Positions 21,375 through 40,654 of a stretch of DNA of 64,000 bases are shown piece after piece. The DNA comes from Ruania suaedae. Lineage in GTDB: Bacteria > Actinomycetota > Actinomycetes > Actinomycetales > Beutenbergiaceae. Numbering within the stretch: the first letter of the stretch is position 1; each line of letters opens with the position of its first letter. The DNA is taken from the NCBI RefSeq assembly GCF_021049265.1, contig NZ_CP088018.1, positions 2,108,001 through 2,172,000 on the forward strand, in the 5' to 3' direction. Made by a program: the position numbers and the translations under genes. A model generated the notes under the pieces. The model ran no database searches and was not told where the DNA came from. It saw only the letters and a program-made list of their open reading frames with translations.

Positions 21375-21468
21375 TTGTGCTGTGTTCTGCGAGATTAACG
21401 AGCGATCTGCGTGTCGTCAAGCCTCGACCTGGCCGCACGTTCGCCTGCTTGTGCCGCTTTCTGCACGA
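21375..21468. promoter_or_regulatory. Two direct repeats in the deoR/sugar-operon divergent region
   Basis: Two 20-bp elements starting TTGTGC and containing TTCTGC (21375-21394 and 21449-21468) match at about 15 of 20 positions. They are 74 bp apart, between the divergent DeoR regulator and the sugar operon. They are candidate DeoR operators. An alternative is chance similarity in a 193-bp gap. Confidence 0.4.
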
Positions 21469-21497
21469 TCTGGCCCGCGTGTGCTACCAATAGGTGC

Positions 21498-22313
21498 ATG
21501 TCGACCGCAGGCGCTGATACCCAGGACCGTTCCCGGCACCTCCCTGCGCACCGGCGTGGAGCGTTGGCGGACTACGTCGCCGAGCGCGGTCAGGTGGCCG
21601 TGGCCGACCTGGCCGAGCGGTTCGCGGTCTCCATCGACACGATCCGCCGCGACCTGGATCAGCTGGATGCCGACGGGTTGCTGATCCGCACCCACGGGGG
21701 TGCGGTGAGCAAGTCCGCGGCTCCGGTGGGAGATCGCAAGCTCGACATGCGGCTGCACCTGCACACCGAGCAGAAGGAACAGATCGGTGCCTTGGCTGCC
21801 CGGCTCGTGCAGGACGACTCGGTGATCATGCTCAACGGTGGCACCACCACGCTGGCGGTGATGCGGCACCTGCGGGATCGGCGCGGGCTGACGATCGCGA
21901 CCAACAATCTGCGTATTCCGGCCGAGTTGCCACCCGGGATGGAGTGCGAGCTCTACGTCTTCGGTGGGCACGTGCGCACCGTCGCGCAGACGACCACGGG
22001 TGCAGTCTCCTTCGGTGTGACGAATCGTCCGGACGAGATCACCGTGAGGGCGGACATCGCCATCGTGGGGGTCGGTGCGGTGGCGACGTCGGGCTTCTCG
22101 ACGAGCAACGTCGGTGATGCGGCGATGATGGCCGAGATGATGGACCACTCCGAGCAGGTCGCCGTGGTGGCCGACTCCTCGAAGTTCTCACGCCACCTGT
22201 TCGCGCAGATCGCCTCGCTGGACCGCGCGACCTATCTGGTCAGCGATGCCGCTCCCCCGCCCCCCATCGCCGCGAGCCTGAAGGAGGCCGGGGTCTCGCT
22301 GATCACGCCCTGA
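21498..22313 (+). CDS. DeoR/GlpR family transcriptional regulator
   Basis: The 271-residue repressor has the N-terminal DeoR winged helix (GALADYVAERGQVAVADLAE, then IDTIRRDLDQLDADGLLIRTHGGAV, residues 20-70). The sugar-phosphate-sensing DeoRC domain follows, with DSVIMLNGGTTTLAVMRHL near 110 and VVADSSKFSR near 225. It is divergent from the sugar ABC-aldolase-kinase-manA operon and probably represses it until a phosphorylated sugar intermediate appears. ATG 21498 starts just before the HTH; the frame is open to 21411. The last 37 bp are duplicated 314 bp downstream. Confidence 0.9.
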   Translation: MSTAGADTQDRSRHLPAHRRGALADYVAERGQVAVADLAERFAVSIDTIRRDLDQLDADGLLIRTHGGAVSKSAAPVGDRKLDMRLHLHTEQKEQIGALAARLVQDDSVIMLNGGTTTLAVMRHLRDRRGLTIATNNLRIPAELPPGMECELYVFGGHVRTVAQTTTGAVSFGVTNRPDEITVRADIAIVGVGAVATSGFSTSNVGDAAMMAEMMDHSEQVAVVADSSKFSRHLFAQIASLDRATYLVSDAAPPPPIAASLKEAGVSLITP

Positions 22314-22326
22314 GCAGCGTGGCCCA

Positions 22327-22466
22327 CCGACCCAGCGTCGCCTCGCCGACCCAGGCTCGCCCCTCCGACCCAGAATCGCCCCTCCGACCCAGGCTCGCCC
22401 CTCTGACCCACCTTCCAGGCGAGGACCGGACTTCCACTTTCCCTCGATGCATGGAACCTGTGTCGG
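22327..22466. repeat. 19-bp tandem repeat plus degenerate hairpin element, copy 1
   Basis: Four 19-bp units of the form ccgacccagNNtcgccYcK run from 22327 to 22402. They lead into a hairpin-like element with arms 22403-22421 and 22448-22466 (about 13 of 19 complementary). The region 22314-22758 contains no convincing gene; it holds this element and its second copy. Confidence 0.75.
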
Positions 22467-22590
22467 AAGGGGTTGGGTGCCGGGTGGGCGGGGCGGTCCG
22501 GACGGTGCGGGCATGTACCGGGCTTGGGACCGGGAGATCCGGCTGGTCACTCATGCCGTTCCCACCGTCCAGCGCTGCCAGCGCCGGGAA

Positions 22591-22733
22591 CCTGAAGGAG
22601 GCCGGGCTCTCGCTGATCACGCCCTGAACTCCCAGAGTGGCGGGGCCCCGCCGACCCAGGATCGCCCCTCTGACCCACCTTCCAGGCGAGGACCGGACTT
22701 CGGGGCTCCCGCGATGCCTGGAACGTGGGTCGG
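22591..22733. repeat. Duplicated deoR 3' end plus hairpin element, copy 2
   Basis: Bases 22591-22627 repeat the last 37 bp of the deoR gene (22277-22313) with one mismatch. They are followed by one 19-bp repeat unit (22651-22669) and a hairpin with arms 22670-22688 and 22715-22733 (16 of 19 complementary). The left arm and the next 15 bases match copy 1, including ccttccaggcgaggaccgg. It looks like a duplicated terminator-like or REP-like module. Confidence 0.8.
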
Positions 22734-22758
22734 AGGGGCGGGCGCCCGGCGGATGGGG

Positions 22759-23592
22759 CTATCCGACCGGGGCGGGCACCAGTCGGGTGCGGATCTCCTC
22801 CACGCTGAAGGGGTCGGAGACGCTGGTGGTCTGTGCGGTGCCCGCGATCGGGATCCAGGGGCCCTGAGCGGCAACCTGGAACTCCCCCACCCAGGTGGTG
22901 GTCAGCGCGACCGAGACCTCCTCGGCAGCTGCTGCGTAGATGTGGGAGACGGTGTGATCGGGATAGGGCAACCCCGGATCGGTGGTGACAAGCGGGTCCG
23001 AACCGTCGCCGAAGTCCCAGGCGAACTCCACCGGCGTGGCCCGGACCGCGACGTCGAAGCCGAGCACCTGGGTGCTCAGGACCTGCGGATCACCGGAGGT
23101 GTAGGCGATCGTGTCGATGTTGACGGCGGTCCACGAGCGGTTCTCCGGCTGGATCTGGACCCCGCCCGGGACCAACGGCAGTTCCGCGAAGTCGGATGCG
23201 GAGACGGTGATGATCACCGGTGCCGGCTCGTCCGGAGCGTCCTCAGCTTCGTCGTCCTCGGCGGGTTCCTCGTCGCCGGGGCGGTCGTCGCACGGGACCA
23301 AGCCAGCGACCGGGGCCACGTCGTCGGTCACGACGCACATGCCGTCGGGGCCATCGATTGTCACGGGGACGCCGACACTTACCGAAGGCACGGCCCACCC
23401 GTTGTAGCTAGTGCTCGACGGAACGTTCTCCTGCACTGCCTGTTCCCGAACGTGGGTCTCCTTGGCCCACTGGAGAAAGCCACCCTCTGCCGCGTCCGCA
23501 CCGAAGGAGGTGCCATCGTCGCCACCGCTCGGGTCGTCGCCACCCGGCGCCGCGAGCATCAGCACCACACCTGCGGCTGCCAGCAGGCTCAT
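22759..23592 (-). CDS. PKD-like domain secreted protein
   Basis: The 277-residue protein starts with a hydrophobic signal-like segment (MSLLAAAGVVLMLAAP). A low-complexity acidic stretch (PGDEEPAEDDEAEDAPDEP near 107) leads into a PKD-like beta-sandwich with the hallmark FAWDFGDGSDP near residue 190 and TVSHIYAAA near 215. ATG 23592 is preferred because it makes a four-base overlap with the DUF6318 stop; the frame is open to 23631. Coupling to a DUF6318 lipoprotein suggests the two act together at the cell surface. No enzymatic motif is visible. Confidence 0.72.
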   Translation of the reverse strand: MSLLAAAGVVLMLAAPGGDDPSGGDDGTSFGADAAEGGFLQWAKETHVREQAVQENVPSSTSYNGWAVPSVSVGVPVTIDGPDGMCVVTDDVAPVAGLVPCDDRPGDEEPAEDDEAEDAPDEPAPVIITVSASDFAELPLVPGGVQIQPENRSWTAVNIDTIAYTSGDPQVLSTQVLGFDVAVRATPVEFAWDFGDGSDPLVTTDPGLPYPDHTVSHIYAAAAEEVSVALTTTWVGEFQVAAQGPWIPIAGTAQTTSVSDPFSVEEIRTRLVPAPVG

Positions 23593-24191
23593 GAGGCTGC
23601 CTCGCCCACCTGGACTCCCATGACGGACCATTGTTGTCGGTTCCAGGCCATCGTGAGACTGAAGTCCGGGCGATCGTCGGCTTCGAAGCTAGCGTTAGAT
23701 CCGTCGCTCTGAAGGTGGCGCGACTCCGCAGTTCTCACTCCGAGTGTCACGCTGTAGAGGCCGTCATAGGGCCCACCACCATCGCTCGAGTAGACCTCCA
23801 CCTCGCCACCCTCGGCATACCCACCGTCCGCATGAAGCTCCGTTGCCCGGTCTCTCACATTGGTGCAGAAACCACACCCCTCGTCGCTGAGAGCGTCCCA
23901 CTCCTCCAGGTCGCCGCTGGCATACACGTACGGATACAACTCAACGAAGTACTCCGCCGCCGCGATCGCCCCCTCGACCGTCTCCTCCTCCATCTCCGCG
24001 GGCCGCTCGGGAGGGTCCACCTCATGCACCTCGGCCGTCGGCTCCTCACTGGGCTCCTGCGAGGGGGAGGCACTCGTGGTGGTGGGCTCCGCCGTCGGGC
24101 TGGGCTCATCCTCGGGGGGCGTGCACGCCCCCAGCATGAGAACGCACCCGACCAGCGCCCCGACCGACCACGCGCTCCCCCGAGAAGTCAT
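23589..24191 (-). CDS. DUF6318 family lipoprotein, second paralogue
   Basis: The 200-residue lipoprotein has lipobox LGAC (Cys about residue 23), a long Pro/Ser/Thr/Glu-rich spacer, and the DUF6318 core. The core shows RPAEMEEETVEGAIAAAEYFVELYPY near 63 and ASGDLEEWDALSDEGCGFC with the same CxxC as the 14426 paralogue. It overlaps the PKD-protein start by ATGA. Function is unknown. Confidence 0.78.
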   Translation of the reverse strand: MTSRGSAWSVGALVGCVLMLGACTPPEDEPSPTAEPTTTSASPSQEPSEEPTAEVHEVDPPERPAEMEEETVEGAIAAAEYFVELYPYVYASGDLEEWDALSDEGCGFCTNVRDRATELHADGGYAEGGEVEVYSSDGGGPYDGLYSVTLGVRTAESRHLQSDGSNASFEADDRPDFSLTMAWNRQQWSVMGVQVGEAAS

Positions 24192-39456: not shown

Positions 39457-39518
39457 TGACACACCCCCGGCAGTTCGACCCACCCCCGACGGCGACTCAG
39501 ACTGCCGTAGGTGTGTCA
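39457..39518. terminator. Inverted repeat at the MFS gene 3' end
   Basis: Arms 39457-39474 (TGACACACCCCCGGCAGT) and 39501-39518 are complementary at 16 of 18 positions with a 26-nt loop. The right arm covers the last codons of the MFS gene. It may end transcription from either side, though the loop is long for a terminator. Confidence 0.5.
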
Positions 39519-40654
39519 GTCGGCCCGGGCGGAGCTGCCCGCATCGCCCGGCCGAGCACCACCACCGCCACCAGCCCGCTGAGCACCCCGCCGAGCACCA
39601 GCACGAGCGTGATCGACTGGCCGGCCAGCAGCCACGCCGCTGCCACCGGTCCGAGCACCTGCCCGGTGCGGGCGCAGCTCTGCCACCACCCGAACCACTC
39701 CCCCTCGCCGACGGCGCCGATCCGGGCCGCCAGCACCGGGTTCAGGACCCCGTAGAACAAGCCCGTACCCACCAGTGCCCCGACGGCGAGCGCCCCGGGC
39801 AGGACGCCGGCACCGACCAGGAAGAGCGCTCCCGCCGCCCAGCCGGCCATCGTGAGCAGCGCGAACCGTCCCCCGCTGCGCCACCGCCCGGTCGCGAACG
39901 TCGCGGCCGTGGCCAGGGCGGACTGGGCGGCGAGCGCCCACCCGCGCCAGGTCAGGTCGACCCCGTTCGCATCGAGCAGCAACGGCGTCAGCAGCAGCAT
40001 CCACCCGAACACGAGCACGTTCATCAGCACGGTCATCGCCAGGATGCCGAGCACCTCGCGCGGTGGGCCGCGCCGGGAGGCGGGGGACGCCGTCGGGCTC
40101 TGCTCGGGCGTGGTGGCCGGCAGGGCCCGCCAGACCAGCGCGGCGGCCGGCAGGGCGAGGCCGTAGAAGGCGAAGGGCGCGGCGGTGCTGAACCCGCCGA
40201 GTGTGGACCCGATCAGCGGCAACACCACCATCATGGCGCTGACCACGGCCGCGTTGTAGCCGATGGCGCGCACCCGCCGGCCAGGCGAGACCGAGCGGAC
40301 GATGAGGAAGGACAGCGCCACCAGGCCGCCACCGCCGATCCCCTGCAACGCCCGCAGCAGCACCGCCATCGGGAACGTGGTCACCGCGGCCAGCGCCAGG
40401 CCGGCCGCACCGAACAGCAGCAGGCACAGCGTCAGGGCCGCGCGACGCCCGCGCGCTCGCGCCAGTCGGGTGGCCAGCACCCCGGTGACGATGCCCGGCA
40501 GCATCACCGCGGTCTGCACGTAGGCCATCCGGTCGACGCCGACGCCGTACCGGACGGCGAGCTCGGGCAGCACCGGCGCCAGCAGGGACACGCTGGAGAC
40601 GCCGAGCGCGGTGGCGCCGAAGGCCACGGCCATCGTGGTGGCGTCGCGCGTCAC
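39497..40654 (-). CDS. MFS transporter
   Basis: The 385-residue major facilitator protein has about twelve predicted helices. The loop motif LATRLARARGRRAALTL lies near residue 60, LRALQGIGGGGLVALSFL near 94 (a motif C-like region of antiporters), and a central loop rich in Pro/Ser near 195 (TTPEQSPTASPASRRGP). It resembles DHA1/DHA2-type drug exporters. The substrate is unknown. It is divergent from the methyltransferase at 40759. Confidence 0.87.
   Translation of the reverse strand: MTRDATTMAVAFGATALGVSSVSLLAPVLPELAVRYGVGVDRMAYVQTAVMLPGIVTGVLATRLARARGRRAALTLCLLLFGAAGLALAAVTTFPMAVLLRALQGIGGGGLVALSFLIVRSVSPGRRVRAIGYNAAVVSAMMVVLPLIGSTLGGFSTAAPFAFYGLALPAAALVWRALPATTPEQSPTASPASRRGPPREVLGILAMTVLMNVLVFGWMLLLTPLLLDANGVDLTWRGWALAAQSALATAATFATGRWRSGGRFALLTMAGWAAGALFLVGAGVLPGALAVGALVGTGLFYGVLNPVLAARIGAVGEGEWFGWWQSCARTGQVLGPVAAAWLLAGQSITLVLVLGGVLSGLVAVVVLGRAMRAAPPGPTDTPTAV

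Follow-up and report, generated by a model that had tools for sequence, protein, structure and literature searches.

Duplicated hairpins behind a deoR-family gene of Ruania suaedae and a dispersed palindrome family that may have an AbiEi-like protein partner

Results

The deoR boundary holds two copies of a repeat-and-hairpin module

We analysed a window of 64,000 nucleotides from Ruania suaedae (contig NZ_CP088018.1, positions 2,108,001 to 2,172,000), in which a deoR-family regulator gene and a convergent gene enclose a series of short repeats and two hairpins (Table 1). The regulator protein was matched at 85-100% identity in five of the eight genomes of the genus, the source genome (G000) included. 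An initial annotation had described the last 37 bp of deoR as recurring downstream with one mismatch, each copy leading into 19-bp units and a hairpin. The recurrence lies at 22591-22627 and extends to 46 of 50 bp at a spacing of 314 bp, and we confirmed the units and hairpin behind each copy: the hairpin together with the final 19-bp unit makes up a 94-bp module that is present twice, 267 bp apart and 87% identical.

Table 1. Coordinates of the features at the deoR boundary and of the third palindrome in the window
Feature	Position in window	Strand	Basis
deoR-family regulator gene	21411..22313	+	ORF list and protein matches; start codon tentative
50-bp duplicated stretch, reference copy (deoR 3' end)	22264..22313	+	sequence comparison
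Four direct 19-bp units, in exact register with element 1	22329..22404	+	sequence comparison
Element 1, decayed 60-bp palindrome core	22405..22464	+	R3 59.8 bits, E 1.4e-14; fold
Duplicated deoR 3' end, identity 46/50	22578..22627	+	sequence comparison
Lone 19-bp unit ahead of element 2	22653..22671	+	sequence comparison
Element 2, 60-bp palindrome core	22672..22731	+	R3 59.4 bits, E 1.8e-14; fold
Convergent gene, its 3' end bounding the deoR intergenic region	22759..23631	-	ORF list
Element 3, third member in the window	39458..39517	-	R3 E 5.6e-7

As had been described, copy 1 carries four units; copy 2 has one full unit. The second hairpin (entire extent ~22663-22740) is much the more stable, with a folding energy of -59.7 kcal/mol (z -5.97; none of 200 shuffles equally stable) against -31.5 kcal/mol for the first (z -2.04, 8 of 200). 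Within the 60-bp cores, Watson-Crick pairs form at 18 of 27 positions in element 2 and at 16 of 27 in element 1. The motif CCTCYGACCCA exceeds chance in the window, with five occurrences against a mean of 0.17 and a maximum of 2 in 100 shuffles. Element 3, which was absent from the initial annotation, runs 21 bp into the end of a minus-strand gene (39497-40654) that we take to encode an MFS-like protein.

Judged by eye, the deoR boundary is far shorter in the congeners G003, G006, G004 and G001 and is without the duplicated module; the convergent neighbour is common to G003, G006 and G004, and another gene stands there in G001. The G003 boundary holds a different hairpin. Two further proposals for the locus were dropped, namely that the 314-bp duplication includes the convergent gene's 3' end (the sequence behind element 1 shows no significant match, 67 of 500 shuffles being as good) and that the hairpin is an Rfam microRNA (the matches score below the gathering cut-offs).

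The hairpins belong to a dispersed family of palindromes

Arm and loop sequence recurs in G000 beside a tRNA-Leu gene and beside a PIN-type gene (the PIN name given by eye). A covariance model built from four G000 copies (R1) and the refined models R2 and R3 found more; the best 13-150 candidates were scored per genome, and model counts are therefore lower bounds. An exhaustive search for a 60-base pattern fixed at 22 positions, with as many as three mismatches allowed, gave 18 matches in G000, corresponding to 17 distinct elements. Together, pattern and model searches place at least 22 palindromes in this 3.56-Mb genome, three of them in the window. Further copies in the genome and its relatives rule out a one-off local duplication, and a dispersed palindrome family sited at gene boundaries supports the term 'REP-like' used in the initial annotation. 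Its suggestion that the element duplicates with flanking DNA holds for the local tandem duplication at deoR and fails for the dispersed copies, which are without deoR DNA. A second flank-carrying duplication is perhaps present at locus L095 of G006 (167 bp at 70%). At that locus (1113-1279 and 2249-2395) elements lie ~1.1 kb apart, and the shared flank is itself an inverted repeat.

Elsewhere in the genus, the pattern matched 13 times in G006, 11 times each in G007 and G001 and four times in G003, some of these matches being register-shifted doubles; there were none in G002, G004 and G005 and none in 16 genomes of the family outside Ruania. The reversed pattern, run as a control, had no match in any of 24 genomes. 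Across 394 genomes of the class, R3 matched five besides G000 at E 1e-5, only G192 strongly, and outside Ruania copies are few (1-9 matches per matching genome, both strands counted). By eye, we rejected as elements a weak R1 match in G004 (L203) and the candidates L092, L109, L110 and L125-L127. The palindromes yielded neither a clean empty site nor a target duplication.

On G000 contig C1, which begins at a DnaA-like gene (by eye), no element was found in the stretch 910839-2130404, 34% of the chromosome. In a post hoc comparison, the largest element-free arc covered 34% in G000 (p = 0.008, simulation), 53% in G001 (p = 0.023) and 19% in G002 (p = 0.55), and we do not claim an origin-proximal distribution.

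Half-units of 19 bp build a 60-bp core with covarying arms

The core is exactly 60 bp long in 47 of 50 elements and is laid out as 19-bp half-units ordered direct, direct, inverted, inverted: one 19-bp unit (consensus GACCCACCTTCCAGGCGCC) and the beginning of another precede a loop, after which the arrangement returns in inverted form. At a lag of 19, bases 1-8 agree with the sequence further along at 65%, compared with 17-37% at the other lags from 9 to 22. Of 47 elements, 8 have an extra unit at exactly 19 bp on the left and 8 on the right, against a median of 0 for other offsets; L116 carries two further identical units. This register and lag identify the 19-bp repeat of the initial annotation as the hairpin arm. 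We left L098, L121 and L111, with core lengths of 59 or 61, out of alignments A3 and A4, and excluded L112 from both (G004, other dialect). The G005 elements L229, L240 and L246 are 68-70-bp variants that retain the 19-bp lag, so core length is not fixed across the whole genus.

The palindrome arms covary strongly. In an alignment of 63 elements, which contains orthologous copies and whose rows are thus not independent, full-length pairing accounted for 80.0% of cells (67.7% shuffled, at most 45% slid), changes on both sides affected 269 cells (120 +/- 9.7 shuffled, 56-106 in slid controls) and the covariation score was 0.355 (0.157 in shuffles). Each of these three values was reached by 0 of 500 shuffles.

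Dialects differ in sequence, and orthologous sites retain elements

The 17 elements fetched from G002 have the identical 60-bp geometry and the sequence GAGGTAACTTCC; one of these, L111, is a poorer fit to 60 bp and was kept out of the alignment. In G004, GAATCCCCTTCC palindromes of ~70 bp lie around the partner gene described below. Positions 3, 22, 39 and 58 vary jointly between dialects. Another local series of repeats and hairpins, distinct from these, is present in G004 at C2 ~2176900-2177100 (L018), its units being of type GACCCACTATCCCGACGACGACCGG.

Seven groups of orthologous sites retain an element in two to four species. At two sites shared by G007 and G002, every two-sided change replaced one Watson-Crick pair by another (5/5 at the first, with five one-sided changes, and 6/6 at the second, with three). 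Among 13 decayed orthologous pairs, Watson-Crick double changes made up only 13 of 51 two-sided changes, so concerted change of the arms rests on the two near-perfect G007/G002 pairs. At L027 (G000 C1, 203147-203206), an element lies right after a PIN/VapC-like gene pair and ahead of an alpha-L-fucosidase-like gene (by eye), a site where elements are kept in several Ruania.

Palindromes sit between genes and are not canonical terminators

None of the 66 distinct elements (L111 counted once) lies inside a called gene, with a 25-bp overlap tolerated and genes called by simple codon usage; overlaps of L080, L081, L084, L097 and L117 with stop-to-stop ORFs vanished once start choice was applied. 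By their neighbours, 25 are convergent, 27 tandem, 13 divergent and one undetermined. Convergent siting is enriched relative to the gaps of the window (25 of 66 versus 11 of 62, Fisher p = 0.018), many elements lie 8-30 bp past a stop codon, and one precedes a tRNA gene.

The initial annotation had also offered a terminator as an identity for the hairpin. In the canonical sense this was not borne out: the deoR locus has no terminator-like site, and a T-run follows the hairpin in only 1 of 126 tails. The RAYT/Y1 transposase family PF01797 had no match in the eight genus genomes and was positive in 5 of 14 control genomes. These two results set the palindrome apart from standard REPINs and from canonical intrinsic terminators. 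A GTAG or CGTC tag is likewise absent from the consensus, whose alignment ends read GAC/GAG...GTC/CTC. Given their placement at 3' ends, the palindromes may act as T-less terminators or as boundaries, and the deoR hairpin may be a boundary between two convergent genes. Counts of G-U versus A-C mismatches on the transcribed strand stood at 29:13 in a first set of elements and 6:8 in a second, and the pooled ratio (35:21, p = 0.08) gave no clear sign of RNA-level selection.

One protein family is encoded between paired palindromes

Pairs of elements recur ~1.1-1.2 kb apart, and in genome after genome the interval encodes one protein family of ~310-340 aa. Gene and palindromes are associated: in all seven fetched genomes with an intact copy, the gene is flanked by palindromes on both sides. 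These genomes are G001, G002, G004 and G007 from Ruania, and G169, G192 and G217 from two other families of the same order. Gaps between gene and palindrome measure 1-204 bp and the whole unit spans 1203-1413 bp (n = 7); in each case, the two flanking palindromes resemble each other and the dialect of that genome. The second palindrome in G004 and in G217 came from a palindrome scan and not from the model. The gene was present in 8 among 77 element loci (204 kb). At E 1e-3 it was missing from 673 kb of comparison sequence, made up of 62 control loci, the window itself and a 400-kb portion of G003. None was seen among the fetched loci of G003, G005, G006 and G063.

The source genome retains no more than a C-terminal fragment of the gene next to an element (3302426-3302839), having lost the N-terminal half as well as the second flanking palindrome. 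At the syntenic place, G003 lacks the gene at E 1e-3, and the 400 kb taken from it gave no convincing element (best E 0.03). Two element pairs picked up likewise enclose something else instead (gene names by eye): a glyoxalase-like gene at L114 (G001), and genes of other kinds at L095 together with a stretch of G000.

In three Ruania genomes with the intact gene, palindromes have kept more of their pairing, on average 21.6 of 27 positions (G007 23.2, G002 22.1, G001 19.3), than in three where the gene was not seen, with 18.0 of 27 (G000 18.3, G006 17.6, G003 17.3). This test compares 35 with 28 elements (p = 5e-6 over elements) from three genomes a side with kinship ignored, and scores G003 and G006 as 'gene not seen', not as 'absent'.

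The candidate partner protein combines AbiEi-like and nuclease-like parts

Its N-terminal part matched Pfam AbiEi_4 in five of seven members (E up to 0.5, best 1.6e-6), and the L104 protein matched AbiEi in PADLOC (E 1.9e-8). Weak family matches, to DUF559 in two of seven members (best 2.2e-6; L228 above the cut-off), suggest a DUF559/Vsr-like C-terminal part, a putative nuclease. Residues D246, D259, G260, K263 and Y264 are invariant across all seven aligned members, and we take the D246/D259/K263 pattern to resemble a PD-(D/E)XK site. NCBIfam gave no match for any of four members, a profile search for a solved structural relative found none, structure prediction of the protein alone yielded no usable fold (pLDDT 35), and the protein had no match on plasmids or phages.

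Discussion

The deoR locus holds a tandem-duplicated member of a Ruania-wide set of intergenic palindromes, for which, on balance, we think a REPIN-RAYT-like partnership with a different type of protein somewhat probable. We infer that this partner acts on the palindromes. Its AbiEi-like domain would bind the 19-bp half-units, by analogy with studied AbiEi proteins, which bind inverted repeats; the Vsr-like domain would then nick or cut at the bound half-units, and repair and copying would spread the palindromes and equalise their arms, as has been proposed for RAYTs acting on REPINs. The better preservation of palindromes where the gene is intact supports such a mechanism. Since the G000 gene has lost its N-terminal half, the palindromes of that genome, those at deoR included, would be relics, which would decay and rearrange through slippage and tandem duplication. 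A broader proposal, plausible but tentative, is a second, independently evolved bacterial symbiosis of repeat and enzyme, in which an AbiEi-like/PD-(D/E)XK-like protein would recognise half-units and act at nested palindromes, whose spread and arm homogenisation it would drive; dialects would co-evolve with it, and decay would set in upon gene loss, as behind deoR. Within that proposal, conservation of the 19-bp geometry would span three or more families of the order.

Several features could instead reflect host-domesticated boundary or termination hairpins, next to a protein that is unrelated or merely autoregulated. Such a role would suit the convergent enrichment, the many copies shortly after stop codons, retention in seven orthologous groups and the different hairpin occupying the deoR boundary of G003. 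We nevertheless consider it unlikely, as 13 of 66 elements lie between divergent genes and one ahead of a tRNA gene, T-runs are nearly absent, mismatches give no clear sign of RNA-level selection and the double flanking of the gene in seven of seven genomes is left unexplained. An autoregulator of the AbiEi type would likewise have sites by its own gene, which counts against the partnership reading. According to the available portions of two reports, AbiEi proteins bind inverted repeats of 23 bp close to the gene that encodes them (PMC3985639, PMC7319586), and one of these reports has Rv2827c binding four repeats in its own promoter (PMC7319586). Four half-sites are also present in each Ruania element, and positions 3, 22, 39 and 58 vary together as in the sites of one protein, which would fit multi-site operators bound by an AbiEi-like global regulator whose nuclease-like part is vestigial or regulatory. 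This too appears rather improbable: protein half-sites need no full-length pairing, yet the non-conserved spacers pair as well, many copies sit between 3' ends, and the palindrome recurs downstream of the gene in all seven cases.

We regard as very unlikely a purely mutational origin, with arms made perfect by template switching during replication, 19-bp units multiplied by slippage and no protein involved. The arms do agree while their sequences differ, tandem expansion is seen at deoR (four units) and at L116 (two extra identical units), and template switching homogenises inverted-repeat arms according to the part of a yeast study available to us (PMC8604942). Mutation of this kind would leave unexplained the dispersal of a common sequence, the near-fixed 60-bp core, the joint change of inner and outer units and the recurring gene.

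To our knowledge, the RAYT, an HUH transposase, is the sole protein partner known for dispersed palindromes. Some REP families have no known partner, as stated in the accessible text of one study (PMC3733652). A partnership of the REPIN-RAYT-like kind favoured here would make the AbiEi-like/DUF559-like gene a candidate enzyme for orphan palindrome families, offer a possible role for DUF559/AbiEi fusions and provide, in the dialect series, a natural test set for the co-evolution of protein and site. It also predicts that palindrome decay follows gene loss. In the portions seen of the open-licence literature matches listed for Ruania and related actinobacteria, DUF559 or AbiEi with palindromes, the family is unreported.

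Among known systems, intrinsic terminators share the GC-rich hairpin directly past stop codons, whereas 125 of 126 Ruania tails are without a T-run and the palindromes are also sited between divergent genes. CGTC-tagged REPs, as far as the excerpted source describes them (PMC3733652), are palindromes that likewise lie between genes close to 3' ends and for which no dedicated transposase is known; the Ruania palindromes are longer and untagged, and a partner gene is seen with them. AbiE type IV toxin-antitoxin systems resemble the unit described here in having an AbiEi-like protein and inverted repeats beside its gene, with operator sites of 23-3-23 bp in the passages available (PMC3985639). 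In contrast, the Ruania palindromes lie on both sides of the gene and are dispersed genome-wide, the protein carries a C-terminal nuclease-like part, and the short gaps of 1-204 bp mean that no DUF1814 toxin gene fits inside the palindrome-gene-palindrome unit. Compared with REPIN-RAYT systems, the unit (19 bp), the core (60 bp), the ~20 copies seen and the AbiEi-like/DUF559-like partner set the Ruania family apart. Both nonetheless consist of inverted doublets that are scattered outside genes and can form hairpins, at least 22 of them in G000; both have a dedicated gene beside palindromes of matching type, here one that is not a RAYT; and both form tandem clusters that include flanking sequence, as reported for REPINs in the sections available of PMC3116915.
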